From the NCBI RefSeq assembly GCF_022458985.1, contig NC_061772.1:30986506-31050505 (forward strand): a stretch of 64,000 nucleotides of DNA. The letters run 5' to 3'. The notes beneath the pieces were generated by a model. That model was given only the letters and a program-made list of their open reading frames with translations. It was not told where the DNA came from and made no database searches. Source of the stretch: Mugil cephalus (taxonomy: Eukaryota > Chordata > Actinopteri > Mugiliformes > Mugilidae). This document shows positions 41,013-62,822 of the stretch, one piece after another (position 1 is the first letter of the stretch; every line of letters begins with the position of its first letter). The position numbers and the translations under genes are program-made.

Positions 41013-41871
41013 TCATTCATTAATTCTTCTTGGAGCTGGATGTGGTGGAGCTGGATGTGATGGAGCTGGATGTGGTGGAGCTGGATGTGGTGGAGTTGAT
41101 TCCAGGAATTGTTTCAGATGCTTCTGTGCAAACTTTGATTCAGGATCAACGCAGATGACAACATTCTTCTTAGTTGTGACTCTGTAAGAAACACAAGAAG
41201 TCGACTGTGAGGTCAGCGCCCTCAGATAAGACATCCAGACAATGAACCTGAAGAAAGGGACCAACAGAGTCCAGCAGCACTTCCTGTTTCTACTCACATC
41301 ATGGCTTTGGTTTTGCAGTGGTCTGGGCTCATCTCTACACGCTGCACCATGCGCTTGGGGATGATTACTGGTTTGATATCCTCTGGACAGCAGCTGCTTT
41401 TACTCAACCTGTCCACAGCAACTGAAGCTGAAAACACAAACACACTCATTTAATATGAAGCATGGACAGGCTGGAGACATGAACTCATAGAGGACACAGA
41501 GACATGAACTCAGAGAGGACAGAGACATGAACTCATAGAGGACACAGAGACATGAACTCAGAGAGGACACAGAGACATGAACTCAGAGAGGACAGAGAGA
41601 CATGAACTCAGAGAGGACAGAGACATGAACTCAGAGAGGACAGAGACATGAACTCAGAGAGGACACAGAGACATGAACTCAGAGAGGACAGAGAGACATG
41701 AACTCAGAGAGGACAGAGAGACATGAACTCAGAGAGGACAGAGACATGAACTCATAGAGGACACAGAGACATGAACTCAGAGAGGACACAGAGACACTTA
41801 CCGGCAGCAACATGACGAAGAAGCAGAAAGCAGTCAAGAGTCAGGAGTGTGAGGATCAGTAGTGTCTTCAT
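41013..41871 (-). CDS. CC chemokine, copy 1 (Pro/His/Ala tail)
   Basis: A secreted chemoattractant that would act on G-protein-coupled receptors of leukocytes. Exons in gene order: 41871-41802, 41427-41298, 41181-41013, giving 122 residues. The signal peptide MKTLLILTLLTLDCFLLLRHVAA is encoded by exon 1. The mature core has the CC pair at 36-37 (SSCCPEDIKPVIIPKRMVQR), the third Cys at 61 and the fourth at 77 (NVVICVDPESKFAQKHL). The C-terminal tail after residue 95 is built from a minisatellite and reads PPHPAPPHPAPSHPAP. Intron 1 is full of a short repeat. Its upstream DNA differs from that of the other copies, with a probable solo LTR replacing the TATA promoter. No one-to-one mammalian ligand is evident. 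Confidence 0.88.
41460..41795. repeat. Minisatellite in chemokine copy 1 intron 1
   Basis: About fourteen units of roughly 23-25 bp (agacatgaactcagagagga plus CACAG or CAG). The same intron has about six units in copy 2 (50840-50970), two or three in copy 3 (55090-55150) and four in copy 4 (62650-62750). Confidence 0.9.
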
Positions 41872-41984
41872 GCTTCAAGCTGGAGTCTGGATGAAGCTTG
41901 ATGAAGCTGGATGAAGCTGGATGGAGTCTGGATGGAGTCTGGATGGAGCTGGATGGAGCTGGATGAAGCTCTCTAATGAGATGT

Positions 41985-42980
41985 GTTAGATCCCACAGGT
42001 AACAGGTAAGTCGGTAGTTGAGTCCCGTCAGTTGTGGTGACTTACCCCTAATGGATCTGTGCACTTGGTACGTGCCAGGTATTAATTTAAAGGCTAGGCT
42101 GGAAGCCCTAAGGACATAAGAATAGTTTTAAGTGGACTTGACTAGTGTGACCAATAAGAGCTCGGTGTCAGAGCTAGCATTCAGGTTTGCTTATAGTTTT
42201 ACTGTCTTGAGTACCAGCAAAAAGGGAGAAATAATCGTCAGCAAAGACTTCTGACCTTTGGAGTCAGATTTTATTTTCAGGTTCAGCTTAAGCAATTTGC
42301 AACAGCTCAGTTAATCAATCAAATCCAAAATCAGATATTTGTTAAAATAACATAAGAATTTCAGATAATCAATCCTGTAATACCTAATCAGAAATATCCT
42401 TATCGTATTCTGTTCTAAAAATCAATTAATCAAAAAGAATTACTTATGAACCAGGCCTATTCCAACTGAACTCTGTACAAAGTCCCAGGAATAGAAATCC
42501 AGAGGTATGAAAGATAAACCGACCTTCGTCTGCTAGGCAGGGGGGATCCAGACCAAACTTTAATTATTTTAAAAGCCAAAATAATACTGCTGGGGAGTCG
42601 GCTCAGTCCTCATGCAGCACAGTCTGTGTCCGAGGGGAAATTCTTGATAAGATATTAAGATACTTCTGCATTTCATCTTTTATACTCTTAAATCGAGACA
42701 CATCCTATTTTCCACACATCACCATGACCAACCATCACCCCACTACTTTCATCCAATGAGGATGTTACATTCATGACTTATTAATTAATACTTGGACATT
42801 GGTTTTCCACTGACTGGTTGTTTGGACATGTCCTAACCTGCCCTCAGCCCATAAGGTTTCAGTTCCCTTTCTGCCCCCACTGCCTGACATCTGTATCCTG
42901 TTTTTCTCATTCTGCTCCCGATTTCCCAACTTTAGTTACACTGGTTCAACTATTATTTATTTTACACTCTGTGTGTAACA
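41985..42980 (-). mobile_element. Probable solo LTR of an LTR retroelement (fossil)
   Basis: About 1 kb of DNA absent from the other chemokine units, bounded by TGTTA and TAACA. Read on minus, it has a TATAAAAG box (42684-42677) about two-thirds downstream of nothing else recognisable, followed by GC-richer leader-like sequence, as expected of U3-R-U5. No internal coding is present. Superfamily not determined; a target duplication was not evident. It lies in the same orientation as chemokine copy 1, ending 114 bases from its ATG. Confidence 0.45.
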
Positions 42981-43039
42981 TTCAATCACTGAAAATCTAC
43001 ACTGGATACGTTCAGCCTTGAATCAGAAAAACTCAACCT

Positions 43040-43145
43040 GGATCATAGAATAGAATAGAATAGAATAGAACATGCATTTAATGTCATTTCATGGGTAACA
43101 CAACAAGTAAATACAATCGTATCCGGTTCATAATTGAAACCATAG
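43040..43145. repeat. (TAGAA)n microsatellite and flank, unit 1
   Basis: 'catagaatagaatagaatag' is followed by a flank shared with the other units (ATGTCATTTCATGGGTAACA). The repeat is (TAGAA)n in units 1, 3 and 4 but has become (GAAGA)n of about 80 bp in unit 2 (51428-51510). Confidence 0.85.
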
Positions 43146-43545
43146 AATAATAAAAGATGACTCCACGGTCTCGTACGTCATATTATCCTGTGAAGAGAAG
43201 ATGACGAGAATTCAGATGGAAGAATCACCTCAGTCACTGCCACATTTCTTATCAAACTACGCAGGGATCCACAGATGTACGTCTGGGACTTTATACCTGG
43301 TGAAGTCATCGAAAAGAAAGACAAAGACAAACCCCTCCAAGGCCGGGACAACGGCTGGACATTGTTGAGGACATATTGACAGAACTGTGCAAAGGTTTAA
43401 GGCAGGTGTAAAAAATAAATGCTGCCAACTAAGAATGGTTTCAAAAATATAGATGATGATTTATTAGGTTCATTTTTATCAGTTTACAAAATGCAAAGAG
43501 TCACATCAATATGTGGTGTTACTGCCTTTACTAGACTTTACTCTA
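43146..43545. mobile_element. Insertion specific to unit 1, partly Tc1/mariner-like
   Basis: Against unit 2 (break after 'ttgaaaccatagaa') about 400 bp are extra here. The right part (GTGCAAAGGTTTAAGGCAGG, acaaaatgcaaagagtcaca) resembles terminal DNA of fish Tc1/mariner elements; the left part is unrecognised. No transposase frame is present. Confidence 0.4.
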
Positions 43546-44125
43546 GATAGGGTCAGGGTCTAGGTCCTCTGGCTCTACGTCAGGGTCTAGGTCCTCTGGC
43601 TCTACGTCAGGGTCTCCCTCTGACATGGAAACAAGACCAAGAGACTCCACCATGAACCAGAACCAGAACCAGGACCAGGACCTGGGCTCAGAACCATCTG
43701 GACTGATGAGTCAACACCAGTCACTTCACTCTGAGCTTTGATTTAAACACTCGACTTATTTATCATGACTTTACTCAGATGAAGAAAGAGTCACGTTGGA
43801 GTTTACGCTCATTTAATTCATTCATTAGTTTCTTGTTCTTTGGTTCTGATATCCTGACGTCTGGAGTCGTGTTTTTAGTCCTGAGCTCAACTCATGAAGT
43901 CATTTCTCAGTCAATGAATGAACTGAGGTGTTTCCTCTTTCACTTCCTCCTCCGTTCACGTGAATTAATCTGCTGAATGCTTTTTCTTCGAGGCTTAAAC
44001 GTTGTGGTTTTTCAGATGAACGGATCTGAAGTTTGGATCCAACTTCTGCATCAAGTTCAATGAAAATGTTGAACTGTGCTTTTAGGTTTCAGGTCAATCT
44101 GCTACTTTCTAGTAGCTCATTAGCA

Positions 44126-44350
44126 TTCCTCTCTGCTAATGTGCTACTTCTTAGCAGCATGTTAGCATGCCACTCTCCTAATGTGCTACTTCTTAGCAGC
44201 ATGTTAGCATGCCACTCTGCTAATATGCTACTTCTTAGCAGCATGTTAGCATGCCACTCTCCTAATGTGCTACTTCTTAGCAGCATGTTAGCATGCCACT
44301 CTGCTAATATGCTACTTCTTAGCAGCATGTTAGCATGCTACTCTGCTAAT
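44126..44350. repeat. 42-bp minisatellite, unit 1
   Basis: About five units containing gctacttcttagcagcatgt and TAGCATGCCACTCTGCTAAT occur. Unit 2 has one or two (52345-52395) and unit 3 about two (56380-56470), so copy number changed after duplication. Confidence 0.88.
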
Positions 44351-44639
44351 CTCCAGGGAGGACATCAGCGTGATCATCGATGACAAGTCTTCTCTTGCAT
44401 TTAAAAGGGTTTATTACAAGAAAGAACAATATCAAAAACTCAGTTGTTGAATCCTCTCTGTCGTTCAGCTGCTACAGTCGCCTTATATGTGATTCTTATC
44501 CCCAAGAACCACCATTCATGAACAAGGAAAACTTTTCTCCTGACGTCCAGTTGGTTTTACGAGCTGACAACTGGTAAATAACCTTTTAACCTTTAGATTT
44601 TGTACACATTTCACCAACAGGAAAAACACACAACCAACA

Positions 44640-45395
44640 TATCCTGGATTAATCCCTTATCCTGGTTTCATGCCACGGCCCCAGACTTATTCATCCATGG
44701 CCGTGATCTGGAACTATCTCTGCAGCCGCTCCCCGAACTCTCTTCATTTGAATGCCTTGCATTTAAATGTAAGTTCCCTTCCCCTGTGCTGCTCCTCCTC
44801 ATCTACCGACCATCCAAACCAAACTCGTCATTCATCTCTGAGAAATCAAATCTTCTCACAACTGTACATCATCGAAGGGACACACCCTGGACTTGGTCAT
44901 CACAAACTCTGCCCCTCTCACCAACCTGCAGGTACATGACCTTGGTGTGTCAGATCACACCAAACCCAATCATCATCCATAACCAGCATCACCTCCTCTG
45001 ACTCCAGTATCACTCTGTCATCAACAGTCACAAATCAAATCAACTCTGAATCCCAGTCTACCACCTGGTCCGTGCCTTTGTCTCCCCAGACTAGATTACT
45101 GCAACTTCTCATCGGGATCCCCAGCAAGAGCCTGCAGAGGCTCCAGTACATCCAAACCTCTGCAGCCAGGATCCTGGTGAGAGTGCGTAAACATGAGCAC
45201 ATCATCCCCATCCTCCGCTCACTCCCCTGGCTTCCTGTTTCCACCAGGATTCCACCACCACCTCAAAGAACACATCACGCTCCCTTCCAGAACCAGACTT
45301 AAGATCACGGGAGATAGGCCCACAACCCACCGACTGTTTCCAAAAACATTTCTTTTTAGTACAATTTTTGATTCTCCATCTAAGAAGTTTTAAAC
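44640..45395 (+). mobile_element. L2-type LINE, internally deleted, unit 1
   Basis: The left part encodes an endonuclease-domain piece (SSFECLAFKCKFPSPVLLLL, IYRPSKPNSSFISE, then TLDLVITNS-like). A jump then leads to the C-terminal region (SKSLQRLQYIQTSAARILVR, HIIPILRSLPWLPV) and ends near SKKF. The RT domain is missing. A nearly identical copy lies at 56767-57527, so the deletion predates the duplication. Confidence 0.8.
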
Positions 45396-45865
45396 TTTCT
45401 AAACCTTCTTATCTTGTTTTCTATTTGAAACATGATGATGGATAAAAGCTCTAATGTAAGAAACTCCACCACTGAGACTGGAAATGAAAAGAAAGTTTGG
45501 GCCTGACGGGAAGACGTTTCTTGTCCTGAACGTGGCAGTGTTTCTTAGAACATCCTCCAACACATTTCACTTTTAAAGACATCGGAAGAAAAACACTCTA
45601 CACTTCCTTATTCCACGAGAAACATGAAACCTCATCACATTCTACTTCCTGCTAACTCCTGGTTCACGTTCCTGTTTCCTTCATTAAATGTTTTTCTATG
45701 ATTCAATATGAAGTAATTCAGTCATTTAAAAATAAACAAAGACATCAGCAGGAGGTAAAGCTCCATAGAGACCAGAGGGCTGCTGCACAAAACCAGGATA
45801 AGGGATTAATCCTGGATATGTTGGTTATCCTGGATGAACTTATCCATGATGACGACTCTTCCATA

Positions 45866-46440
45866 GTCAGACGAGGAGGTGGTGGAGGACCACAGGAGGA
45901 ACCGGAGGAGTCCTGTCCCAGTCACCATCCAGGGTGAGGAGGTGGAGGCTGTGGACTCGTACAAGAACCTTGGGGTCCACATCAACAATAAACTGGTCAC
46001 ATGATGCAGACGCCCCCTACAGGAAAGGACAGAGCAGGACGATCTTCCTGAGGAGACTGACTCCTCTAGACCTTCTACCAGTCTATGGTGGCCAGTGGGC
46101 TCTCCTTCCCTGTGGTGTGATGGGGGGGAATAAACTAACTGGGGAGGAAAGCTGCTCGGTGCTGGGACTGAACTTGGACTGGTTGGAAACAGTGGCTGAG
46201 AGGAGGACGAAGGACAAAATCTGTTTAATGTTGGACAATCGCTCTCATTCTCTGATGTTCATCTCCTGCATTCAGAGGATCATTCACCCCAGAGCAGAAC
46301 TGAAGCTTCAGACGCTGCTTAGTGGCCACAGACATCAGCTCTGACCTCACTGAGCCCACATGTAGACGCACAACTGCTGCCACTTTGTGTACTGTACTTG
46401 TAAATGCCATTGTATTTGCCTTTGATAATAATTCATAAAT
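45866..46440 (+). mobile_element. Rex1-type LINE 3' fragment, unit 1
   Basis: It encodes a piece related to the LINE at 13.3-13.9 kb on minus (NLGVHINNK-like words, WSHDADAPYRKGQSRTIFLR, ETVAERRTKDKIC). The shared frame breaks show it is a dead copy. It directly abuts the BEL/Pao fossil. Confidence 0.75.
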
Positions 46441-48663
46441 ATGTTGTTGGACAGGATAAAATGTTAATTCATGTGTTTAAGAAGAAGGGGTTAATTTAAT
46501 TGTATTTACATAATTTGTTTAATGGCTGCAGTTGTAATCAGTTAATTGTGTTGCTACAGCAGCTAAAGTGATAACGCTGCATGCAAAGCATGGCCCGAGA
46601 TGTGTTAAGGACGTCTCTCATGACAAGCGGCCAACAAGGTATTTTTCGTTACATTCGTGATGTATTTTGTTTATATTTACACAGCGCAATTTTTATGCTT
46701 TGTTATTTTCTGTGCAGTCATTATTGCAAACTGATATATTTTATTGTTTATGTCTTAGTTCTCACGGCATGAAAGCAAGAGGGCGAGATGGATGGAGAAA
46801 AGCCTGATAAATGCCAGTTTCAAAGAACCCGATCCGTGTCTGCTCCACACGGGAAGGAGAGGAAGAGGCCGGTGTAACATTAAGTGAAGTCCATACATGT
46901 GCTGCTGCATTATGGTGATTAGACTGAGTCTGAAGCGTAACTTTTTAAAGTGAAGCCAGGAAACTCTCCGCCTGCCTAAGTAAAGTGGAGAGAGACCCGA
47001 ACTACACTAAGCAAAAGTTTTGGGATAAGGAAAGAGTGGATGTTGATAAGTGATTTTTGTTAGAAGTTAAGGGGAATCATTTTATATTGTGTACTTGATG
47101 CATCTGTAATTTAAACCCATTATCTTTTCAATGAATGTTCAGAGTATTTGTGTTTGTGATTTCACTGGGTTTAAATTGACACTAGCTTTAAGTTTGATAA
47201 GTTGCTAATGCTAAAACAGTCATCTGATACGATTTGTGTTTACAAATCAAGTCAAGCATAATCACTTTGTCTACATACAGTGATTAAAGAATCTCTCTTA
47301 AACCTACTGTAACTCAGTTTAACACAGATAACAACATATACACACATAACAGAGGCGCTGAAGATTTCTCAAAATGTCTGACACAAACACTGAGTCCTGC
47401 CATAAAGATGTAGGATCACCTGCTGAACCTGAAGCCACAAACACACAATCAGCAGAAGCACAAATTCTGCGAAGAAGCAGAAGAAACCGAACTTGGACAG
47501 AAAAGGAACAGGAACTTAAAGAGAAAAGGCTGAAGACTCTGCAGCATAGATACAAAATCATCTATGAGAAATGGAGGTACCATGCAAGGGTAGGCAAAGA
47601 AATACTGTCTGATACGGCCTCAGAAGATGATTTAAAGTCATTGATTGAAGATATTAAAGTTGCTTGCTCTAATGTTAAGACTATCTATGAAGAGTTACGT
47701 AGAGTTCAAGCACCAGACCCAGATGTGAAGCGTAGAGTCGACACATGTGTATCCCTCTCCGATCATATTATACAAAGGGCAGTGAGAAATCTGACAGGAC
47801 ACCCAGAGCAGGAAAAGGCAGAACCCTGGCCTGACGTTGGATCAATCCTAGATTCCACAACTTCTTCATCAAAGTCTCACAAGTCAAGGTATGGTTCTGT
47901 CCACTCCAGCATCCTCTCTGTAAAAAGAAATGAGGCTCTCAAGAAGTGCTGGCGGTGTTGGATGAACAAGATAAGGAAGCAACAGAACTGCAAAGATTAG
48001 AAGCTGAAGATAAACATCAGCTGCCACAGTTCGAGTATGAGAAGCTAGCTAGACAACAAGCGATCCAAGAAAGGCGCAGAAAGATTGAACGCCTAGAGGA
48101 AGTAAAGAAACTGAATGCTGCAATGACTCGAACAAAGGTCTATGCCCAAGTTGAGAACTGCAGCACACTTCAACTGCTGAATGATGCAGAATCAGGAGCA
48201 GACTTTAAAGTTCCTTTAAAGTTCCTGACCCCAATGGTTCAACATTCATACCACAACCTCATCCAGTCATAACTCAGGCCCCAGTCCCTCAAGTCTGCCA
48301 CCTACACCCCTAGCTCCAGTGATTCCAACATTCCCGACTCAAACTCAGAGAAATTCAGACATTGCTTTGGTCAGTGTGCTAGCTGAAGCTATTAATGCTA
48401 ATCGTCTCCTACACCAGAACCTGCAGTGTTTACTGGAGACTCCTTGAAGTTTAATGATTGGCGATTGTCATTTGAAACATTAATTCACAGGAAAAACATT
48501 TCCAAGAATGAAAAATTGTTCTACCTAAGACAATATCTAGGTGACCCAGCAAAGAAGGCGGTGGAAGGTTTCTTCCTACTAGGGACAGAGACAGCTTATG
48601 ACTCAGCCTGGCAGCTATTGGAAAAACGCTTTGGAGACCCTTTCATAGTAGGAAAGTCCTTCA
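46441..48663 (+). mobile_element. BEL/Pao LTR-retroelement fossil, unit 1 (leader and gag part)
   Basis: It has AT-rich LTR/leader-like sequence (46441-47370), then a coiled, charged Gag-type region (from 47374) and a segment typical of BEL/Pao Gag (FNDWRLSFETLIHRKNISKN, LFYLRQYLGDPAKKAVEGFF, LEKRFGDPF) ending at about 48660, where the 28-bp minisatellite begins. No protease, RT or integrase is present. It is broken, with a few breaks, and truncated at the right. The sister copy at about 58290-60510 shows the insertion predates the segmental duplication. Confidence 0.8.
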
Positions 48664-48665
48664 GA

Positions 48666-48890
48666 AGTAGCTCTCCAGCTAATAGCAGCTCACTCCTACT
48701 CCCACAGTTGTATAGCAGCTCCTCCTAGCTTCGTAAGCTCCAGCTAATTAGCTCTCCTAGCAGCTCCTCCTAGCTCCCAGCTAATAGCAGCTCCTCCTAG
48801 CCTCCAGCTAGACTAATAGCTAGCTCCTCCTAAACCTCCCAGCTAACAGTAGCTCCTCCTAGCCTCCCAGCTAATAGTAGCTCCTCCTAG
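48666..48890. repeat. 28-bp minisatellite, unit 2 (irregular)
   Basis: Same family as 38995-39530 and pole3 intron 3, but with many small indels and only about seven units. Confidence 0.85.
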
Positions 48891-50040
48891 CTAGCTTTGT
48901 CGCTCTAAATTCTCCTATGACATCAATTCAATCTTAAACAAAGCTTGAAACATTGAGACATTTTAATATTTTTATTATTTTCTCAGCTTGTGTTCAGTTG
49001 CTGTGACATTTTCAAACCAGTATTTCTTCTATTTCTTCTATTTCCTGCTGAAGTGAACATTCATCTCTGTGTAATCATCGGTGTCTGGAGACAGATGGAG
49101 TGTTTTCAAGAGTTTCTCTCGTCTCTGTAGAACTGGTGTTGGCACGACTACTTTACATCAAACAATGGAAGCATTGAAGAGTCCAACAGGCTTTTATTCT
49201 CGTCCTCCTCTATCACCTCTTATTTCCCTCTTCCCTGCACAGCCTCTCCATCTTACACAGAAACATCAAGTGAAGAATCCTGGTGGATGACGTTGTTCTT
49301 CAGAGCCTCATCAGGTCTGAAATGACTCTAATCAGCTGTGGTGCTTCATGCTGCTGATTATAAACACTAATCTGAGTCAGATGTTGATCTAGAAACCTAA
49401 ATATCTGATTTACTGTCTTACAGATGTCATTTCATTGGCAAACATTTATTTTAGCTGTAGACTGTGTCTCCTTCTGGTTTTCTCTTTCTATTTCCTGTTA
49501 AAAACTGTTTCACCTTGTTCCAGCTACCCTGGTTTGGTTTCATTCTTTTCAGCTCAACCTCTCATGTGCGACTCTACACTTATTTTTTTCATTCTGTCAA
49601 ACTGTATAAACACATTGACCTAAAACCAGACTAAAACCATCAAATCCCGGTGGGAAAAAGTTAGAAAACCACAAACATGTAGAACCAACCATTTTAGAAC
49701 TAAGATTGTAAATCTAACCTGGATCATTTTCAACCAGTAATAATGTCTAAATGTCTCTAAACTGTCTCCTGTCTCCATAGATTGAATATAGCCTCACTGT
49801 TCCCTAGCAGCCATTGACACATCATGTCCTGATTGGTTGATGGATGCATGTTTCCACCAATAGGAAAGGGGCTGTCATGTTGTGTTTCTTTCTATCATGT
49901 GTAGTTGGCTAGCTCTCTCCTACTACTCTGCTAATATGCTACTTCCCAGAGCTTCCTAGCCTCCAAATGCTAAATAGCATCTCCTTCTAGCGTCCTAGCT
50001 ACCCACACTGCAGGGAGTTCAAAGAGAGCACGCTCATGAT
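48891..50040. other. Duplicated spacer, unit 2
   Basis: Nearly identical to 39531-40680 over its whole length, with scattered single-base changes and a few short insertions. No gene was recognised. Confidence 0.6.
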
Positions 50041-50390
50041 TCATTTATTCATTTATTTATTTTATTTAACAGGAACAAAACAAACGACATCACCAGAGAC
50101 GACTGGGAGGACGTCATGTCTTTAAGACTTGTTGCTTCTTTGTCCCTGGCCAGACTTTTAAATACAATGAGACAATCACACAACTACGGTGAATCTATTT
50201 ACACACTCGGCACAAAAACAAAGATAAATAAATAACTGGTTTAGCCCAGTACAAGATGGCGGGCCCATCTCCAGCATCCAGCAGAAACCAAACAGATGAA
50301 ACAGCCAAAATACGAAAATAAAAAAGATGTGAGAACTAATTCCAGTTGTTTCATTTCCATGAGCTCAGTGATGACGGATTCATTCATTCA

Positions 50391-51048
50391 TTAATTCTTC
50401 TTGGAGCTGGAGGTGGTGGAGCTGGATGTGGTGGAGCTGGAGGTGGTGGAGTTGGGTGGTGGAGTTGATTTCAGGAAGTCTTTCAGATGCTTCTGTGCAA
50501 ACTTTGATTCAGGATCAACGCAGATGACAACATTCTTCTTAGTTGTGACTCTGTAAGAAACACAGAGAAGTCGACTGTGAGGTCAGCGCCCTCAGATAAG
50601 ACATCCAGACAATGAACCTGAGAAAGGGACCAACAGAGTCCAGCAGCACTTCCTGTTTCTACTCACATCATGGCTTTGGTTTTGCAGTGGTCTGGGCTCA
50701 TCTCTACACGCTGCACCATGCGCTTGGGGATGATTACTGGTTTGATATCCTCTGGACAGCAGCTGCTTCTACTCAACTCGTCCATAGCAAATGAAGCTGA
50801 AAACACAAACACACTCATTTAATATGAAGCATGGACAGGCTGGAGACATGAACTCAGAGAGGACACAGAGACATGAACTCATAGAGGACACAGAGACAAG
50901 AACTCAGAGAGGACACAGAGACATGAACTCAGAGAGGACAGAGAGACATGAACTCAGAGAGGACACAGAGACACTTACCGGCAGCAACATGACGAAAAAG
51001 CAGGAAGCAGTCAAGAGTCAGGAGTGTGAGGATCAGTAGTGTCTTCAT
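50391..51048 (-). CDS. CC chemokine, copy 2 (Ser/Thr tail)
   Basis: Exons in gene order: 51048-50979, 50796-50667, 50550-50391, GT-AG with the same phases as copy 1; 119 residues. The signal peptide (MKTLLILTLLTLDCFLLFRH) and four-cysteine core are as in copy 1, with an N-terminal change to ASFAMDELSRSSCCPEDI. The tail is read in another frame of the minisatellite and gives NSTTSSSTTSSSTTSSSKKN, a mucin-like Ser/Thr stretch likely to be O-glycosylated (inference), with an N-S-T sequon. A TATA box lies about 160 bases upstream of the ATG. Function in leukocyte attraction is inferred from family. Confidence 0.88.
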
Positions 51049-51204
51049 GCTTCAGGCTGGAGTCTGGATGGAGCTGGATGAAGCTGGATGAAGCTGGATG
51101 AAGCTGGATGGAGCTGGGTGAAGCTGGATGAAGCTGGGTGAAGCTGGGTGAAGCTCTCTAATGAGATGGAGCTGGAGGATGAGCTCTGAGAGGCTCCGTC
51201 CTCT

Positions 51205-51211
51205 CTTTATA
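51205..51211 (-). promoter_or_regulatory. TATA box of chemokine copy 2
   Basis: TATAAAG on minus, within GCATGCATATAAAGAGAGGA, 157 bases upstream of the ATG. The same box and flank are present in copies 3 and 4 but not in copy 1. Confidence 0.7.
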
Positions 51212-51427
51212 TGCATGCCCAGCTTGTCTTTCTCGGAGAGAATTATTCTAAGAACAGTCTGCTTCCTCCTTCAGTTCTGCCACTGCTTCTCTTTTCTCTC
51301 TCTCGGGTTATTTTTTGCAGTACAGAGAAAACGTGAAGTTGATGAAGACTATTCCGAAAAGACTCGTACACAGAAAACACATCTGGATACGTTCAGCCTT
51401 AAATCAGAAAACTCAACCTGGATCATA

Positions 51428-51510: not shown

Positions 51511-52537
51511 CATGCATTAAATGTCATTTCATGGGTAACACAACAAGTAAATACAATGGTATCCAGTTCATAATTGAAACCATAGAACGTCAGGGTCTAG
51601 GTCGTCTGGATCTACGTCAGGGTCTAGGTCCTCTGGCTCTAGTCTCTGGGTCCAGTAGGATCAGAGACTCAGTGGAAACTCAGAGGATGAAAAACACGTC
51701 CAGATTATTTGTCTAAATGTGAAGACGTCCAGCAGAGACATGAGCTCAGAACCGACCCAGGTCCACCAGCTACTGTCTGGACCAGTCTGGACACAAGTGG
51801 TCTTCATGGAAGAGCTGCAGCCAAACATCCCTCTGACATGGAAACAAGACCAAGAGACTCCACCATGAACCAGAACCAGAACCAGGACCAGGACCTGGGC
51901 TCAGAACCATCTGGACTGATGAGTCAACACCAGTCACTTCACTCTGAGCTTTGATTTAAACACTCGACTTATTTATCATGACTTTACTCAGATGAAGAAA
52001 GAGTCACGTTGGAGTTTACGCTCATTTAATTCATTCATTAGTTTCTTGTTCTTTGGTTCTGATATCCTGACGTCTGGAGTCGTGTTTTTAGTCCTGAGCT
52101 GAACTCATGAAGTCATTTCTCAGTCAATGAATGAACTGAGGTGTTTCCTCTTTCACTTCCTCCTCTGTTCACGTGAATTAATCTGCTGAATGCTTTTTCT
52201 TCGAGGCTTAAACGTTGTGGTTTTTCAGATGAACGGATCTGAAGTTTGGATCCAACTTCTGCATCAAGTTCAATGAAAATGTTGAACTGTGCTTTTAGGT
52301 TTCAGGTCAATCTGCTCATTTCTAGTAGCTCATTAGCATTCCTCTCTGCTAATGTGCTACTTCTTAGCAGCATGTTAGCATGCCACTCTGCTAATCACCA
52401 GGGAGGACATCAGCATGATCATCGATGACAAGTCTTCTCTTGCATTTAAAAAGGTTTATTACAAGAAAGAACAATGTCAAAAACTCAGTTGTTGAATCCT
52501 CTCTGTCGTTCAGCTGCTACAGTCTCCTTATATGTGG
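51511..52537. other. Duplicated spacer right of chemokine copy 2
   Basis: It corresponds to 43600-44485 of unit 1, 55570-56600 of unit 3 and 63240-64000 of unit 4. Open frames such as 51709-51954 recur in unit 3 through duplication. No domain was recognised. At about 52537 the match jumps to the spacer before the next chemokine. Confidence 0.6.
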
Positions 52538-52734
52538 TTGTATGTAAATCTAACCTGGACATTTTTCAACCAGTAATAATGTCTAAATGTCTCTAAACTG
52601 TCTCCTGTCTCCATAGACTGAATATAGCCTCACTGTTCCTTAGCAACCACTGAACTCATGGCTGATTGGTTGATGAGCCATGTCTCCACGATAGAAAGCG
52701 CCTGCAGTTGTGTTTCTTTCATCATGTGTAGTTG

Positions 52735-53000
52735 CTAGCTCCTCCTCCTGCTAGCTCTCATCCTCCTGCTAGCTCTCCACCTTGCTATATCCTCCTCCTG
52801 CTAGCTCTTCCACTTAGCTAGCTCCTCCTCTCTGCTAGCTCTCTCCTTTTGCTAGCTCTCTCCTCTGGCTAGCTCTCTGTCTGCTAGCTCAATTCTCCTG
52901 TAGCTCTCCCTCTTGCTAGCTCTCTCCTCCTAAGCTCTGACTCCTTTGCTAGCTCTCTCTTTTGCTAGCTCTCTCCTTTGCTAGCTCTTCCTCTAGCTAG
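52735..53000. repeat. (GCTAGCTCTCCTC)n minisatellite, irregular
   Basis: About seventeen units of 12-16 bp occur, with many small indels. It lies where units 1 and 2 have 'agctggctagctctctcct', apparently an expansion of that word. Confidence 0.8.
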
Positions 53001-54165
53001 TGTTTCATCGCGAACCAAACATGACGACAATTTCAGAACAAGCTCAGTTATTAGAACAGTCTAGTTTTACTTGGTCTAGAACACTGTTAAATGATCTATA
53101 GGCTGAAGTTTCTACTAATAGAAACAGAGATCATGGAGAAGAGTCTGATGTAGTCGTTTAAATGGTTTTTTATTTAAGAGTCTAGAGGATTGAATATTTA
53201 TTTCAAACCTTAGTGGTATAGCAATATAGCTTGAGATCTGTCCACGCTGAAATATCTCCAGCATTTAATGGTCCCCATTAAGAAGCGATGAACGCGACTC
53301 CACTGATACGCTATGAGGTTAGCTAGCTGTTGAATTATTTAATCATTTTCATCAGGACCAAATCACTGGCATTGACTTCTGTGCTTCAGGACGTGTTCAT
53401 GAGGCTCTAGATAGCTTGACTCTAATAGCATGTGGGCTCTGAGTCCGACACATGGAATGGCGTCTGAACAACAGAGGGTCATGAGTAGCAGATGTTCTAA
53501 CATCTAGCTCAGTAACCAGTACAATATACTTTTACTGTAATTAAGTGTCATTTTTCGGCAAACTTTAATTTTATTTCTTTTTACTCTTTCTCCCCACGTT
53601 TGTCCACAAATATCAGGACTTTCTGTCCTTCCACTGGACAAACAGCTCATTACTTTTTAACTTTTTACTTTTTAACCTGCAAGATTGGAATGATGTCAAT
53701 ACTTACATGATCAGCACACGACTAGCATGTGGACTTAATGAAAGAATTATCGAAGAGGAAGGTAAGAGGAGAACTAGAGAGGAGAAGAGGAGAGGAGGAA
53801 AGAGCTAGGAGGAGGAAAGGAAGAGGACGCGAAGAAGAGGAGGAGGAAGTTAGGAAGAAGAGGAGGAAGGGAGGAGGAAGAGGCAGGACGGAGGTTTAGA
53901 GGAAGAAGGAGAAGAGGAGGAGGAGAGGAGGAACGGGAATTAAACAGAATGAATGTGAGAAGCAAGAGTAGTCAGGATGCAGAGGAGGAGGAGAGGAAGG
54001 AGCACAAGGGCGTAATGGTGAAAAGGTGATGAGTCAGAGTCAGATCCTATTTAAGAAAAATGATCAGAATGATTCACTGGTTTGAACTAATACAGAGTAT
54101 TTTACAGAAGCTATCAGTTAGGTTTTCTTTAGTAGTACAAATGTGTACTTTTGCACCTGCTCTTA
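53001..54165. other. DNA unique to the copy 2 / copy 3 junction
   Basis: It is not found in the other units. It includes a purine-rich (AGGAGGA) tract at 53755-54000. No gene was recognised. Confidence 0.45.
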
Positions 54166-54626
54166 GCTGCTACTACTGCTAATATGCTACTTCCCAGGAG
54201 CTTCCTAGCCTCCAAGCTAATAGCATCTCCTTCTAGCGTCCTAGCTACCCACACTGCAGGGAGTTCAAAGAGAGCACGCTCATGATTCATTTATTCATTT
54301 ATTTATTTTATTTAACAGGGACAAAACAAACGACATCACCAGAGACGACTGGGAGGACGTCATGTCTTTAAGACTTGTTGCTTCTTTGTCCCTGGCCAGA
54401 CTTTTAAATACAATGAGACAATCACACAACTACGGTGAATCTATTTACACACTCGGCACAAAAACAAAGATAAATAAAAAACTGGTTTAGCCCAGTACAA
54501 GATGGCGGCGCCCATCTCCAGCATCCAGCAGAAACCAAACAGATGAAACGGCCAAAATACGAAAATAAAAAAGATGTGAGAACTAATTCCAGTTGTTTCA
54601 TTTCCATGAGCTCAGTGATGACGGAT

Positions 54627-55223
54627 TCATTCATTCATTAATTCTTCTTGGAGCTGGAGGTGGTGGAGCTGGAGGTGGTGGAGCTGGATGTGGTGGGGAG
54701 GTGGTGGTGGTGGAGTTGATTTCAGGAAGTCTTTCAGATGCTTCTGTGCAAACTTTGATTCAGGATCAACGCAGATGACAACATTCCTCTTAGTTGTGAC
54801 TCTGTAAGAAACACAAGAAGTCGACTGTGAGGTCAGCGCCCTCAGATAAGACATCCAGACAATGAACCTGAAAAAGGGACCAACAGAGTCCAGCAGCACT
54901 TCCTGTTTCTACTCACATCATGGCTTTGGTTTTGCAGTGGTCTGGGCTCATCTCTACACGCTGCACCATGTGCTTGGGGATGATTACTGGTTTGATATCC
55001 TCTGGACAGCAGCTGCTTTTACTCAATAAGTCCACAGCAACTGAAGCTGAAAACACAAACATGCTCATTTAATATGAAGCATGGAAATGCTGGAGACAAG
55101 AACTCAGAGAGGACACAGAGACATGAACTCATAGAGGACACAGAGACACTTACCGGCAGCAACATGACGAAAAAGCAGGAAGCAGTCAAGAGTCAGGAGT
55201 GTGAGGATCAGTAGTGTCTTCAT
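54627..55223 (-). CDS. CC chemokine, copy 3 (His/Leu/Gln tail)
   Basis: Exons in gene order: 55223-55154, 55046-54917, 54801-54627, same phases; 124 residues. The core is as in the other copies (ASVAVDLLSKSSCCPEDIKP, KHMVQRVEMSPDHCKTKA, NVVICVDPESKFAQKHLKDF). The tail uses the third frame of the minisatellite: PPPPPPHHIQLHHLQLHHLQ, then LQEELMNE. Its promoter keeps the TATA box. Confidence 0.87.
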
Positions 55224-55359
55224 GCTTCAGGCTGGAGTCTGGATGGAGCTGGATGAAGCTGGATGAAGCTGGATGGAGCTGGATGAAGCTGGATGAAGCT
55301 GGGTGAAGCTCTCTAATGAGATGGAGCTGGAGGATGAGCTCTGAGAGGCTCCGTCCTCT

Positions 55360-55366
55360 CTTTATA
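55360..55366 (-). promoter_or_regulatory. TATA box of chemokine copy 3
   Basis: TATAAAG on minus in the same flank as in copies 2 and 4, 137 bases upstream of the ATG. Confidence 0.7.
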
Positions 55367-56766
55367 TGCATGCCCAGCTTGTCTTTCTCGGAGAGGATTA
55401 TTCTGAGAACAGTCTGCTTCCTCCTTCAGTTCTGCCACTGCTTCTCTTTTCTCTCTCTCTGGTCATTTTTTGCAGTACAGAGAAAACTCGTACACAGAAA
55501 ACACATCTGGATACGTTCAGCCTTAAATCAGAAAAACTCAACCTGGATCATAGAATAGAATAGAATAGAACATGCATTAAATGTCATTTCATGGGTAACA
55601 CAACAAGTAAATACAATGGTATCCAGTTCATAATTGAAACCATAGAACGTCAGGGTCCAGGTCCTCTGGTTCTACGTCAGGGTCCAGTAGGATCAGAGAC
55701 TCAGTGGAAACTCAGAGGATGAAAAAGACGTCCAGATTATTTGTCTAAATGTGAAGACGTCCAGCAGAGACATGAGCTCAGAACCGACCCAGGTCCACCA
55801 GCTACTGTCTGGACCAGTCTGGACACAAGTGGTCTTCATGGAAGAGCTGCAGCCAAACATCCCTCTGACATGGAAACAAGACCAAGAGACTCCACCATGG
55901 ACCAGAACCAGAACCAGGACCAGGACCTGGGTTTAGAACCATCTGGACTGATGAGTCAACACCAGTCACTTCACTCTGAGCTTTGATTTAAACACTCGAC
56001 TTATTTATCATGACTTTACTCAGATGAAGAAAGAGTCACGTTGGAGTTTACGCTCATTTAATTCATTCATTAGTTTCTTGTTCTTTGGTTCTGATATCCT
56101 GACGTCTGGAGTCGTGTTTTTAGTCCTGAGCTGAGCTCATCAAGTCATTTCTCAGTCAATGAATGAACTGAGGTGTTTCCTCTTTCACTTCCTCCTCCGT
56201 TCACGTGAATTAAATCTGCTGAATGCTTTTTCTTCGAGGCTTAAACGTTGTGGTTTTTCAGATGAACGGATCTGAAGTTTGGATCCAACTTCTGCATCAA
56301 GTTCAATGAAAATGTTGAACTGTGCTTTTAGGTTTCAGGTCAATCTGCTCATTTCTAGTAGCTCATTAGCATTCCTCTCTGCTAATATGCTACTTCTTAG
56401 CAGCTTGTTAGCATGCTACTCTCCTAATATGCTACTTCTTAGCAGCTTGTTAGCATCCTACTATGCTAATCGCCAGGGAGGACATCAGTGTGATCACCAC
56501 CGATAAACCACTGACAAGTCTTCTCTTGCATTTAAAAGGGTTTATTACAAGAAAGAACAATGTCAAAAACTCAGTTGTTGAATCCTCTCTGTCGTTCAGC
56601 TGCTGCAGTCGCCTTATATGTGATTCTTATCCCCAAGAACCACCATTCATGAACAAGGAAAACTTTTCTCCTGACGTCCAGTTGGTTTTACGAGCTGACA
56701 TCTGGTAAATAACATTTTAACCTTTAGATTTTGCACACATTTCACCAACAGGAAAAACACACAACC

Positions 56767-57527
56767 AGCATATCCTGGATGAATCCCTTATCCTGGTTTC
56801 ATGCCACGGCCCCAGACTTATTCATCCATGGCCGTGATCTGGAACTATCTCTGCAGCCGCTCCCCGAACTCTCTTCATTTGAATGCTTTGCATTTAAATG
56901 TAAGTTCCCTTCCCCTGTGCTGCTCCTCCTCATCTACCGACCATCCAAACCAAACTCGTCATTCATCTCTGAGAAATCAAATCTTCTCACAACTGTACAT
57001 CATCGAAGGACACACCCTGGACTTGGTCATCACAAACTCTGCCCCTCTCACCAACCTGCAGGTACATGACCTTGGTGTGTCAGATCACACCAAACCCAAT
57101 CATCATCCATAACCAGCATCACCTCCTCTGGCTCCAGTATCACTCTGTCATCAACAGTCACAAATCAAATCAACTCTGAATCCCACGTCTACCACCTGGT
57201 CCGTGCCTTTGTCTCCTCCAGACTAGATTACTGCAACTTCTCATCGGGATCCCCAGCAAGAGCCTGCAGAGGCTCCAGTACATCCAAACCTCTGCAGCCA
57301 GGATCCTGGTGAGAGTGCGTAAACATGAGCACATCATCCCCATCCTCCGCTCACTCCCCTGGCTTCCTGTTTCCACCAGGATTCCACCACCACCTCAAAG
57401 AACACATCACGCTCCCTTCCAGAACCAGACCTAAGACCACGGGAGATAGGCCCACAACCCACCGACTGTTTCCAAAAACATTTCTTTTTAGTACAATTTT
57501 TGATTCTCCATCTAAGAAGTTTTAAAC
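56767..57527 (+). mobile_element. L2-type LINE, internally deleted, unit 3
   Basis: Sister copy of 44640-45395 with the same missing RT domain and a few base changes. Confidence 0.8.
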
Positions 57528-58009
57528 TTTCTAAACCTTCTTATCTTGTTTTCTATTTGAAACATGATGATGGATAAAAGCTCTAATGTAAGAAACTCCA
57601 CCACTGAGACTGGAAATGAAAAGAAAGTTTGGGCCTGACGGGAAGACGTTTCTTGTCCTGAACGTGGCAGTGTTTCTTAGAACATCCTCCAACACATTTC
57701 ACTTTTAAAGACATTGGAAGAAAAACACTCTACACTTCCTTATTCCACGAGAAACATGAAACCTCATCACATTCTACTTCCTGCTAACTCCTGGTTCGCG
57801 TTCCTGTTTCCTTCATTAAATGTTTATTCTATAGTAATTCAATTATGAATAGTAATATCAGCTCATTAATTAAAATATATAACTAAAGACATCATGCAGA
57901 GAGAGTGGTAGACAAGGACTCCATGTAGACATCCAGTAGGGCTGCCTGACCACAAAAAACCAGGACTAAGGAGGAGTTCAATCCTGGATGTATGTTTGGT
58001 TTGGATATA

Positions 58010-58290
58010 TTGGTTGAAACTTGGACTGGTTGGAAACAGTGGCTGAGAGGAGGACGAAGGACAAAATCTGTTTAATGTTGGACAATCGCTCTCATTCTCT
58101 GATGTTCATCTCCTGCATTCAGAGGATCATTCACCCCAGAGCAGAACTGAAGCTTCAGACGCTGCTTAGTGGCCACAGACATCAGCTCTGACCTCACTGA
58201 GCCCACATGTAGACGCACAACTGCTGCCACTTTGTGTACTGTACTTGTAAATGCCATTGTATTTGCCTTTGATAATAATTCATAAATATG
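58010..58290 (+). mobile_element. Rex1-type LINE 3' end, unit 3
   Basis: It matches 46165-46440 (ETVAERRTKDKIC and following). The part of the LINE to the left is replaced by indel-rich sequence at 57830-58010. Confidence 0.7.
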
Positions 58291-60510
58291 TTGTTGGACA
58301 GGATAAAATGTTAAAAATGTTAATTCATGTGTTTAAGAAGAAGGGGTTAATTTAATTGTATTTACATAATTTGTTTAATGGCTGCAGTTGTAATCAGTTA
58401 ATTGTGTTGCTACGGCAGCTAAAGTGATAACGCTGCATGCAAAGCATGGCCTGAGATGTGTTAAAGACGTCTCTCATGACAAGCGGCCAACAAGGTATTT
58501 TTCGTTACATTCGTGATGTATTTTGTTTATATTTACACAGCGCAATTTTTATGCTTTGTTATTTTCTGTGCAGTCATTATTGCAAACTGATATATTTTAT
58601 TGTTTATGTCTTAGTTCTCACGGCATGAAAGCAAGAGGGCGAGATGGATGGAGAAAAGCCTGATAAATGCCAGTTTCAAAGAACCCGATCCGTGTCTGCT
58701 CCACACGGGAGGAGAGGAAGAGACCGGTGTAACATTAAGTGAAGTCCATACATGTGCTGCTGCATTATGGTGATTAGACTGAGTCTGAAGCGTAACTTTC
58801 AAAGTGAAGCCAGGAAACTCTCCGCCTGCCTAAGTAAAGTGGAGAGAGACCCGAACTACACTAAGCAAAAGTTTTGGGATAAGGAAAGAGTGGATGTTGA
58901 TAAGTGATTTTTGTTAGAGGTTAAGGGGAATCATTTTATATTGTGTACTTGATGCATCTGTAATTTAAAACCATTATCTTTTCAATGAATGTTCAGAGTA
59001 TTTGTGTTTGTGATTTCACTGGGTTTTAAATTGACACTAGCTTTAAGTTTGATAAGTTGCTAATGCTAAAACAGTCATCTGATACGATTTGTGTTTACAA
59101 ATCAAGTCAAGCATAATCACTTTGTCTACATACAGTGATTAAAGAATCTCTCTTAAACCTACTGTAACTCAGTTTAACACAGATAACAACATATACACAC
59201 ATAACAGAGGCGCTGAAGATTTCTCAAAATGTCTGACACAAACACTGAGTCCTGCCATAAAGATGTAGGATCACCTGCTGAACCTGAAGCCACAAACACA
59301 CAATCAGCAGAAGCACAAATTCTGCGAAGAAGCGGAAGAAACCGAACTTGGACAGAAAAGGGACAGGAACTTAAAGAGAAAAGGCTGAAGACTTTGCAGC
59401 ATAGATACAAAATCATCTATGAGAAATGGAGGTACCATGCAAGGGTAGGCAAAGAAATACTGTCTGATACGGCCTCAGAAGATGATTTAAAGTCATTGAT
59501 TGAAGATATTAAAGTTGCTTGCTCTAATGTTAAGACTATCTATGAAGAGTTACGTAGAGTTCAAGCACCAGACCCAGATGTGAGGCGTAGAGTCGACACA
59601 TGTGTATCCCTCTCCGATCATATTATACAAAGGGCAGTGAGAAATCTGACAGGACACCCAGAGCAGGAAAAGGCAGAACCCTGGCCTGACGTTGGATCAA
59701 TCCTAGATTCCACAACTTCTTCATCAAAGTCTCACAAGTCAAGGTATGGTTCTGTCCACTCCAGCTTTCTCTGTAAAAAGAATGAGCTCTCAAGTAGTGC
59801 TGGCGTGTTGGATGAACAAGATAGGAAGCAACAGAACTGCAAAGATTAGAAGCTGAAGATAAACATCAGTGCACAGTTGAGTATGAGAAGCTAGTAGACA
59901 ACAAGCGATCCAAGAAAGGCGCAGAAAGACTGAAGCTCTTAGAGGAGTAAAGAAACTGAATGCTTGCAATGCTGAAAAAGGTCTATGCCCAGTTGAGTAA
60001 CTGCAGCACTCTTCAATGCTGAATGATGCAGATCAGGAGTCGACTTTAAAGTTGCTTTAAATTCCTATCTCAATGGTGTTCAACATTCATACCACAACCT
60101 CATCCAGTCATAACTCAGGCCCCGAGTTCAGTTCTGCCACTGCTTCATACCTCTCTCTTTGATCAAATTTGCTAATACAGAGAAAATGTCAAGAACACAG
60201 TTAGGTTGGTCCTCTGTGTTCAGCATGCTACGTTCATGCTGGTTAAAGACTATGAAATCTAACTGAATCGTCTTCCTTCAACCAGAAACTGCATGTTTAC
60301 TGGTGACCCCTTTGAAGTTTAATGATTGGATTGTCATTTGAACATTACATCACATGGAAAACATTCCAAGATGAATTGGTTTACTAAGACAATCAGGTGT
60401 CCCAGAAAGAAGGCGGTGGTAAGGTTTTTCTTTCTAGGACAGTGACAGCTTATGACTCAGCCTGGCAGCTATTGAACCTCTTGGAGACCTTTCCTAGTAG
60501 AAGTCCTTCA
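58290..60510 (+). mobile_element. BEL/Pao LTR-retroelement fossil, unit 3
   Basis: Sister of the fossil at 46441-48663, with leader-like sequence and a Gag-type region from 59229. It is broken, with more breaks than the unit 1 copy, and ends at the 28-bp minisatellite. No pol region is present. Confidence 0.75.
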
Positions 60511-60514
60511 GAGT

Positions 60515-60775
60515 AGCTCCCGGCTAATAGCCTCCTCCTAGCTTCCCAGCTAATAGTAGCTCCCAGCTATAGCAGCTCCTCCTAGCTATCTCAGCTAATT
60601 GTAGCTCCCCTAATAGCACTCCTCTAGCTTCTCAGCTAATGTAGCTTCCAGCTAATTAGCTCCTCCTAGCTCTCACTTTAGTAGCTCCTCCTGCTATATA
60701 GCAGCTCCTCCTAGCCTCCAGCTTACTCAGCTCCTCCTAGCTCCTCACTATTTGTAGCTCTCCTCTAGCTAGCTT
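60515..60775. repeat. 28-bp minisatellite, unit 4 (irregular)
   Basis: Same family as the arrays at 17.3, 39.0 and 48.7 kb, with many small indels. Confidence 0.8.
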
Positions 60776-61720
60776 TGTCGCTAGTAAATTTCTCCTGTGA
60801 CATCAATTCATACTTACAAATGCTTGAAACATGGCATTTTATATTTAATCTATTTCTCAGCTTGTGTTCAGTTACTGTACATTTTAAAACAGTATTTCTA
60901 TGCTATTTCTGACTGAAGTGAAACATTCATCTCTGTGTAATCGTAACGGTGTTGGAGCAGATGGAGTATTTTTAAAGAGTTTCCTCTCTTGTAGAGTGGT
61001 TTAGGCACGAAGCTTAATTAATCAACCATGGAAGCATTGAAGAGTCCAACCAGCTTTTAAGTCTCGCCTCCTCTATCACCTTATTCCTCTTCTGACAGCC
61101 TCTTCATTTACACAGAACATCAAGTGCAGATCTGGTGGATGACGTTGTTTTCAGAGCCTCATCAGGTTGAAATGACTCTAATCAGCGGGGCTTCATGAGC
61201 GCTGATTAAAACACTATCTGAGTCAGAGTGATCTAGAAACCTAAATATCTGATTTATGCTCTTACCAGATGTCATTCATGCAAACATTTTTTTAGCTGTA
61301 GACTGTATTCTCTTCAGGTTTTCTCTTTCTATTTCTTTTAAACTGTTTCACCTTGTCCAGTAACTGTTTGGTTTCTTCTTTCAGGATCAACCTCTATGTG
61401 GACTCTTACACTTATTTTTTTTCATCTGTCAATACTGATAAACACTTGACAACCAGACACAAACCATCAAACCGGGGGAAAAGTTAGAAAAACCACAAAA
61501 CGTGAAGAAAGACGAAACCATTTGTAGAAGCTAAGAATGAAATCTAAGGAAAACAGATAAGAAGAGAAGGTCAAATGCCAGGCCATATGGTGAATGATGA
61601 TAGAGTCCAGCACTATTAGAAAATGATCCGATGTTCATGGTCTGAATTTCCAAGTATTTCAGATATCGTCTTTCTTAAGTGTAGCTGGCTTTGCACTCTC
61701 TATTAACTCTGTCTAATATG
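60776..61720. other. Duplicated spacer, unit 4, indel-rich
   Basis: It can be followed against 39531-40560 but differs by very frequent one- to three-base indels, whereas the DNA right of 61720 again matches closely. Poor consensus quality is a likely cause. Confidence 0.55.
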
Positions 61721-62164
61721 CTACTTCCCAGGAGCTTCCTAGCCTCCAAGCTAATAGCATCTCCTTCTAGCGTCCTAGCTACCCACACTGCAGGGAGTTC
61801 AAAGAGAGCACGCTCATGATTCATTTATTCATTTATTTATTTTATTTAACAGGGACAAAACAAACGACATCACCAGAGACGACTGGGAGGACGTCATGTC
61901 TTTAAGACTTGTTGCTTCTTTGTCCCTGGCCAGACTTTTAAATACAATGAGACAATCACACAACTACGGTGAATCTATTTACACACAAAAACAAAGATAA
62001 ATAAAAAACTGGTTTAGCCCAGTACAAGATGGCGGCGCCCATCTCCAGCATCCAGCAGAAACCAAACAGATGAAACGGCCAAAATACAAAAATAAAAAAG
62101 ATGTGAGAACTAATTCCAGTTGTTTCATTTCCATGAGCTCAGTGATGACGGATTCATTCATTCA

Positions 62165-62822
62165 TTAATTCTTCTTGGAGCTGGAGGTGGTGGAGCTGGA
62201 TGTGGTGGAGCTGGAGGTGGTGGAGCTGGATGTGGTGGAGCTGGAGGTGGTGGAGTTGGGTGGTGGAGTTGATTTCAGGAAGTCTTTCAGATGCTTCTGT
62301 GCAAACTTTGATTCAGGATCAACGCAGATGACAACATTCCTCTTAGTTGTGACTCTGTAAGAAACACAAGAAGTCGACTGTGAGATCAGCGCCCTCAGAT
62401 AAGACGTCCAGACAATGAACCTGAAGAAAGGGACCAACAGAGTCCAGCAGCACTTCCTGTTTCTACTCACATCATGGCTTTGGTTTTGCAGTGGTCTGGG
62501 CTCATCTCTACACGCTGCACCATGTGCTTGGGGATGATTACTGGTTTGATATCCTCTGGACAGCAGCTGCTTTTACTCAATAAGTCCACAGCAACTGAAG
62601 CTGAAAACACAAACATGCTCATTTAATATGAAGCATGGACATGCTGGAGACAAGAACTCAGAGAGGACACAGAGACATGAACTCAGAGAGGACACAGAGA
62701 CATGAACTCATAGAGGACACAGAGACATGAACTCATAGAGGCAGGAGACATTACGGCAGCAACATGACGAAAAGCAGAAAGCAGTCAAGAGTCAGGAGTG
62801 TGAGGATCAGTAGTGTCTTCAT
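62165..62822 (-). CDS. CC chemokine, copy 4 (Ser/Thr tail; exon 1 damaged or misassembled)
   Basis: Exons 2 (62600-62471) and 3 (62354-62165) are intact and encode SKSSCCPEDIKPVIIPK, KTKAM and NVVICVDPESKFAQKHLKDF, followed by NSTTSSS and repeated TTSSS words ending KKN, the longest Ser/Thr tail of the four. Exon 1 (ATG at 62822-62820) is two bases shorter than in the sisters: one base is missing from the A-run of the signal-peptide region, and one at the donor, where CGGTAAGTG reads CGTAATG. Taken literally this breaks frame and splicing. As nearby DNA is indel-rich, sequence error is as likely as pseudogenisation. Confidence 0.65.

Follow-up and report, generated by a model that had tools for sequence, protein, structure and literature searches.

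According to the available part of a report on human segmental-duplication paralogues (NPIP/morpheus and others), frame-shifted repeats in the last exon of duplicated genes are already known: tandem repeats lie in the last coding exon of recent duplicates, in seven cases repeat changes shift the frame and create new sequence while the original composition is unaffected, and two reading frames are in use for the type 1 repeats of NPIP (PMC2812944). In this study, we explored a 64,000-nt stretch of the fish Mugil cephalus (NCBI RefSeq assembly GCF_022458985.1, contig NC_061772.1, positions 30,986,506 to 31,050,505 of the forward strand; hereafter the window, position 1 being its first letter), in which four CC-chemokine copies of three exons each stand in tandem on the minus strand (41013-62354) and end in one coding minisatellite that is read in three frames. 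The array shares with the NPIP-type cases a last-exon repeat, a frame that differs between paralogues and an otherwise retained protein, but it features three frames, six tandem copies, a 15-bp unit and events of 13 and 7+4 bp, and the protein concerned is a small secreted chemokine. Frameshifts in the coding variable number of tandem repeats (VNTR) of MUC1 and CEL likewise lead to a new repetitive peptide; these are, however, disease alleles of one gene, whereas the frames described here are differences between paralogues. The available text of a survey of frameshifted protein tandem repeats, which compared reference and frameshifted sequences over 50 proteomes, has in common with the chemokine tails that the other frame changes the chemistry sharply, while here three frames coexist in natural paralogues and the gain of arginine described in the survey is not prominent (PMC12871928). 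No chemokine with paralogue-specific frames of a tail repeat was found in the literature searched on chemokine tails and repeat frames, and three frames in one tandem chemokine array, with loss of a glycosylation-type tail, look new within that literature.

A search of the whole genome (634.8 Mb in 24 contigs, the next 30 kb past the window being fetched as well) with a 488-nt copy 1 query returned six copies, the other five with 95-97% identity to copy 1 over the query, tail included, so that the array extends beyond the window. In all four window copies exon 3 carries a common core up to FL(K/E)STPP and then enters one minisatellite with the 15-bp unit CCACCA-C-A/C-TCCAGCT, for which Tandem Repeats Finder reported an array of 15-bp period at each of the four sites:

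41032..41087, minus strand: copy 1 tail minisatellite, Pro-His-Pro-Ala frame, without the second 13-mer
50403..50456, minus strand: copy 2 tail minisatellite, Ser/Thr frame, with the 13-bp duplication and an NST sequon
54650..54707, minus strand: copy 3 tail minisatellite in the His-Leu-Gln frame, with deletions of 7 and 4 bp relative to copy 4
62177..62260, minus strand: copy 4 tail minisatellite, Ser/Thr frame

The array is read as PPHPA in copy 1 (tail reading HPAPPHPAPSHPAPPHPAPRRINE), as STTSS in copies 2 and 4 and as HHLQL in copy 3 (tail reading PPPPHHIQLHHLQLHHLQLQEELMNE). Copies 5 and 6, outside the window, also use the Ser/Thr frame, which is thus found in 4 of the 6 copies and gives PNSTTSSS(TTSSS)nKKN in each of them. 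Between fixed flanks the tails of copies 1 to 4 measure 56, 54, 58 and 84 nt, corresponding to 0, 1, 2 and 1 modulo 3 relative to copy 1; copy 4 is 30 bp longer than copies 2, 5 and 6 with the frame unchanged, and the four Ser/Thr tails differ in silent ACA/ACC exchanges and unit number only. The chemistry follows the frame. Each of the Ser/Thr tails, 21-31 residues long, contains 16-26 Ser+Thr and a single N-glycosylation sequon (NST), while the tails of copies 1 and 3 contain 1 and 0 Ser+Thr, respectively, and no sequon; with His not counted, the net charges of tails 1 to 4 are +1, +2, -3 and +2, and the copy 1 tail ends in RRINE. An earlier note on this DNA had described four tandem chemokines reading one tail minisatellite in three frames, with a switch in tail chemistry and a stop just after the repeat in every copy, all of which we could confirm, the stop lying within 25 nt of the array; the recurrence of the array at all four sites and the 95-97% identity of the copies speak against chance. 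The unit of about 20 given there has to be corrected to 15 bp.

The differences that determine the frame are located at the start of the array. Ser/Thr copies start with an imperfect pair of 13-mers (12 of 13 positions identical), and removal of the second 13-mer from copy 6 yields the start of copy 1; beyond this start, copy 1 differs by an additional unit and a single base change. When 7 and 4 bases are taken out of copy 4, it matches the first 60 of the 70 nt of copy 3; a single 11-bp deletion was considered for copy 3 and rejected, since it needs at least 7 mismatches and the 7+4 solution fits better. The 15-bp unit is a multiple of three, and a change in unit number therefore alters the length and not the frame, which rules out unit-number slippage as the cause of the frame change. 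Of the two causes that the earlier note had named, small indels thus stand (13 and 7+4 bp) and unit number falls. Across the six copies, exon 2 and the exon-3 core together (224 nt) have 0 indel events, whereas 5 were counted over the 555 columns of intron 2 and 3' flank, the ends of the alignment being excluded; the tails of 54-84 nt have undergone changes of unit number in addition to the 13-, 7- and 4-bp events.

The four window tails are open in each of the three frames (12 of 12 readings), because the unit contains no stop word in any frame, and directly after the array AAGAAGAATTAATGAATGA provides a stop in each of the three frames within 25 nt. By itself, such openness says little about selection, since all frames are also open in 37% of random 15-mers drawn at window composition and in 79% of shuffled units; a stop in all three frames is less usual, occurring in 3.0% of 25-nt stretches on the minus strand of the window. 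When frameshifting indels of 1-14 bp were simulated in the four window tails, 4404 of 4440 left an ORF (open reading frame) ending 0-25 nt past the array and the remaining 36 led to a stop before the array end, compared to 1679 of 5880 still open to the array end for indels in the exon-3 core. The tail can therefore change frame almost freely.

In the model that we propose, six secreted fish CC chemokines in tandem end in a 15-bp coding minisatellite that is stop-free in any frame, and the stop in every frame directly after the array renders the tail a frameshift-tolerant cassette. An indel in the array would swap one disordered tail of 20-30 residues for another, leaving signal peptide, fold and ORF intact. 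The older tail would be the Ser/Thr one, (STTSS)n with the NST sequon, presumably glycosylated as in lymphotactin/XCL1; copy 1 would have lost one 13-bp repeat, resulting in its Pro/His tail, and copy 3 would have lost 7+4 bp, independently of copy 1, resulting in its His/Leu/Gln tail. We give moderate confidence to this reading, in which the frame switch would be nearly neutral slippage, tolerated by a disordered and permissive tail, and not a device that is maintained.

The history of the frames was approached from sites outside the tail. Among the four window copies 11 sites support the split of copies 1 and 2 from copies 3 and 4, with 0 for either alternative split, and an unrooted tree of all six copies, built without the tail, places {1,2} against {3,4,5,6} at 99% ultrafast bootstrap, its other nodes reaching 41-64%. 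Since the central branch has Ser/Thr copies on either side, the Ser/Thr frame is more parsimoniously taken as the older one, and the likeliest course appears to be that copies 1 and 3 switched independently, with one terminal event each. With Ser/Thr in 4 of 6 copies and each of the other two frames a single event by parsimony, the fast diversification that had been suggested for the locus is not borne out. No outgroup was obtained from the exon-2 search (6 candidates) or the exon-3 search (22 candidates), both of which returned the six copies alone; a Pfam IL8 search of the genome gave 24 matches, other chemokine-like exons, which were left out as outgroups.

CX3CL1 and CXCL16 possess long stalks and a membrane anchor, and the genes described here resemble them in a stalk-like or Ser/Thr-rich region after the chemokine domain, but differ in that the tails have 21-31 residues and no hydrophobic segment. 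The four window tails contain no membrane segment, the highest Kyte-Doolittle mean over 19 residues being -0.41, and all six ORFs end at most 31 residues after STPP. A membrane-tethered chemokine of the CX3CL1/CXCL16 type, and with it the tethering proposed in the earlier note, is not supported by these short, hydrophilic tails. The antimicrobial role put forward for the tails fared no better: a cationic, His-rich amphipathic helix of the CCL28/histatin type in copy 3 is not supported, as the tail has 6 His but a net charge of -3 without counting His, and the helical moment of its HHxQL run HHIQLHHLQLHHLQL is equalled or exceeded in 96% of shuffled versions. A further likeness is to lymphotactin/XCL1, for which the available text of PMC6300513 describes a short unstructured C-terminal tail after the helix, although XCL1 has one disulphide while the present chemokines have a CC motif and four core cysteines, with a tail that switches between paralogues. 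By analogy, the short Ser/Thr tail may be disordered and glycosylated as in XCL1. The last 17 residues of murine XCL1 are dispensable for receptor binding and chemotaxis, as stated in the same available text (PMC6300513), which fits tolerance of tail change and would be in line with a dispensable tail here.

The gene structure of the window copies is as follows, the signal peptide being assigned by eye:

41802..41871, minus strand: copy 1 exon 1, signal peptide, GT donor intact
41298..41427, minus strand: copy 1 exon 2, N-terminal loop and CC motif
41013..41181, minus strand: copy 1 exon 3, coding part to the stop, tail HPAPP...PRRINE
50979..51048, minus strand: copy 2 exon 1
50667..50796, minus strand: copy 2 exon 2
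50391..50550, minus strand: copy 2 exon 3, coding part to the stop, tail PNSTTSSSTTSSSTTSSSKKN
55154..55223, minus strand: copy 3 exon 1
54917..55046, minus strand: copy 3 exon 2
54627..54801, minus strand: copy 3 exon 3, coding part to the stop, tail PPPPHHIQLHHLQLHHLQLQEELMNE
62755..62822, minus strand: copy 4 exon 1, lying in noisy sequence; 68 nt with a broken frame in the assembly
62471..62600, minus strand: copy 4 exon 2
62165..62354, minus strand: copy 4 exon 3, coding part to the stop, Ser/Thr tail with two extra 15-bp units

The ORFs of copies 1, 2 and 3 are complete (122, 119 and 124 residues) with GT-AG introns, and exon 1 measures 70 nt and exon 2 130 nt in copies 1-3 and 6. In window-style coordinates, copy 5 spans 70945 to about 70290 and lacks one base at the exon 1 donor, while copy 6, from 79213 to about 78470, is intact. 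As assembled, 4 of the 6 copies (1, 2, 3 and 6) are therefore intact and exon 1 is broken in copies 4 and 5, that of copy 4 by two single-base deletions and an altered donor. An exon-2 search at E<=1 scored 6 candidates, which are the six copies alone. Chemokine identity, as the earlier note had it, is corroborated by copy 1, the copy covered by the domain scan and from whose core the other copies differ by few residues: its protein matches Pfam PF00048 (IL8) with E=3.1e-8 and 34.1 bits (cut-off 21.3), and its PDB matches are chemokines (best E=1.6e-6), the nearest being the XCL1 ancestor 7jh1. The translations show adjacent first two cysteines and four in the mature core (SSCC..HC..IC). Judged by domain, cysteines and three-exon structure, the genes are CC chemokines. 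In intron 1 (41474-41796 and matching places) a 25-bp minisatellite varies in copy number, the intron measuring about 106-373 nt in the four window copies.

Upstream of the genes, a TATA-like box CATATAAAG lies 145-215 nt before the ATG in copies 2-6 (5 of 6 copies) and was not found within 700 nt before the ATG of copy 1:

51205..51213, minus strand: copy 2 TATA-like box CATATAAAG
41984..43001, no strand assigned: dispersed repeat resembling a long terminal repeat (LTR), in place of the copy 1 TATA promoter block, no alignment to copy 2

The stretch from 41984 to about 43001 is a dispersed repeat with 73 matches (40 of 136 candidates scored). It has TG..CA-like ends and three pairs about 16.1 kb apart among the matches listed, and is therefore probably an LTR. 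Expression of copy 1 may be altered or lost. This loss, together with the broken exon 1 of copies 4 and 5 as assembled, would suit an explanation in which the switched copies are relaxed or dying duplicates and the frame changes a sign of early decay. We consider such decay improbable, since splice sites and ORFs are intact in copies 1 and 3, the broken exons belong to Ser/Thr copies rather than to switched ones and lie in or beside noisy stretches, and exon 2 and the exon-3 core are free of indels in all six copies.

The noisy stretches (59800-61650, 62740-62980 and, by eye, 63290-63560) include exon 1 of copy 4; exon 1 of copy 5 lies beside a stretch of raised difference. Between 59.8 and 61.6 kb, 200-nt bins in which mismatches reach 14-30% and gaps are numerous adjoin bins with 0-3 mismatches, while other copies of this stretch, compared to the same reference over kilobases, show 94-97% agreement. 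These patches between near-identical duplicated blocks are probably uncorrected long-read sequence, as the pattern of differences suggests, which raises the question of whether the three frames themselves could in part be artefacts of uncorrected reads in a six-copy repeat. Besides the patches, the absence of one or two bases from exon 1 in copies 4 and 5 would agree with such an error, as would single-base indels near the tails (1 in the 3' flank of copy 2 and several in intron 2). Yet the tails stand in cleaner sequence, with 5 variable sites in 422 nt of 3' flank and two short internal indels among the four copies, the tail changes are of 13, 7 and 4 bp instead of one-base losses, and 4 of the 6 separate loci share the Ser/Thr state, which leaves assembly error the least probable of the explanations we weighed.

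The core, which had been regarded as simply conserved, turned out not to be so: 12 of its 13 variable nucleotides lie in codons with differing amino acids (18, 26, 28, 30, 33, 49, 72, 91 and 94) and 1 is silent (codon 15). For these counts, exon 1 was taken from three copies in the four-copy core (the damaged exon 1 of copy 4 being left out) and omitted from the six-copy mature part, bases of multi-base codons (30 and 91) count separately unless events are named, and all 12 are taken as nonsynonymous. Nonsynonymous variation amounts to 12/227 against 8/537 in intron 2 plus 3' flank for four copies (one-sided p=0.004), and in the mature part of six copies to 11/177 against 11/528 noncoding (one-sided p=0.009). 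The 3' flank was set to 430 nt after dropping its non-homologous end; a flank overrunning homology had given the opposite sign (13/294 vs 60/648, two-sided p=0.012), and that comparison was dropped. Of the 8 variable codons in the mature part, 6 precede the CC motif or fall at the end of the helix (p=0.010, for regions chosen after seeing the data). Core variation hence hints at selection on receptor-facing parts, short of proof.

This excess and the position of the changes, together with the full ORFs retained in copies 1 and 3, speak for a maintained diversification cassette, in which tail frame and N-terminal changes would vary glycosylation, charge and presentation and selection would keep the variants. 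Against it, the excess weakens when multi-base codons are counted as fewer events (one-sided p=0.018 for four copies and 0.040 for six, two-sided 0.062), the deficit of synonymous changes is not significant (P(<=1 of 13)=0.165), the TATA block is lost in copy 1, and the switched tails themselves gave no evidence of selection, for which no direct test was made. We therefore regard the cassette as unlikely, if worth keeping in mind. Somewhat more doubtful is the stronger claim that the minisatellite is a built-in tail switch, in which almost every indel would exchange a glycosylated Ser/Thr tail for a Pro/His or His/Leu/Gln one while the chemokine stays unharmed, and of which selection would have kept several frames alongside diversified receptor-facing N-termini; if it were true, one repeat would give rise to three kinds of chemokine presentation, and if alternative frames were kept by selection, the repeat would be a frame-switch cassette in a vertebrate immune gene.

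Several points weigh against tolerated slippage, which we nevertheless prefer. The copies are known from their DNA sequence alone, and the excess of amino-acid-changing variation in the core would also be compatible with a tail that diversified functionally. Silent variation in the Ser/Thr arrays is confined to one type of site, and purifying selection on the Ser/Thr frame is therefore not demonstrated. The tree is unrooted, so that with copy 1 as outgroup its frame could be the older one; its shorter state may likewise predate the 13-bp duplication, and gene conversion between copies could blur the tree. A shorter form of human XCL1 lost calcium activity, as cited in the available text of PMC6300513, and a viral chemokine with a C-terminal deletion is non-functional, a counter-example in the accessible part of PMC8939814. 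Six near-identical chemokine genes with three unrelated tails from the same DNA constitute a natural experiment on tail function: the part that the tail plays in glycosylation, in binding to matrix or heparan and in stability becomes testable in otherwise near-constant proteins.

We additionally observed a link between the tail array and a second array in the 5' untranslated region (5'UTR):

41887..41970, minus strand: copy 1 5'UTR 10-bp array, sharing the 12-mer CATCCAGCTCCA with the tail array

This 12-mer occurs 14 times in the window, compared to a mean of 0.00 in 100 shuffles. All 14 sites are on the sense strand and belong, in the four genes, either to the tail array of exon 3 or to the 10-bp array of the 5'UTR (41031-41087, 41944-41965, 50417, 51069, 54679, 55244-55285, 62191-62232 and 62875), and copies 5 and 6 display the same pattern (sense strand only, non-overlapping matches). 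The two arrays may have a common origin. Tandem repeats of period >=10 cover 17% of the window, and the coding minisatellite therefore arises in a repeat-rich setting.

Between the genes, duplicated spacers at 47362-48000 and 59217-59849 contain paired ORFs of 210-212 aa (MSDTNTESCHKD...), which have no Pfam match at E<=0.01. Adjoining the chemokine array, ORFs with BTB_2 and Ion_trans domains on the plus strand (33440-37259) are probably a voltage-gated potassium channel gene.

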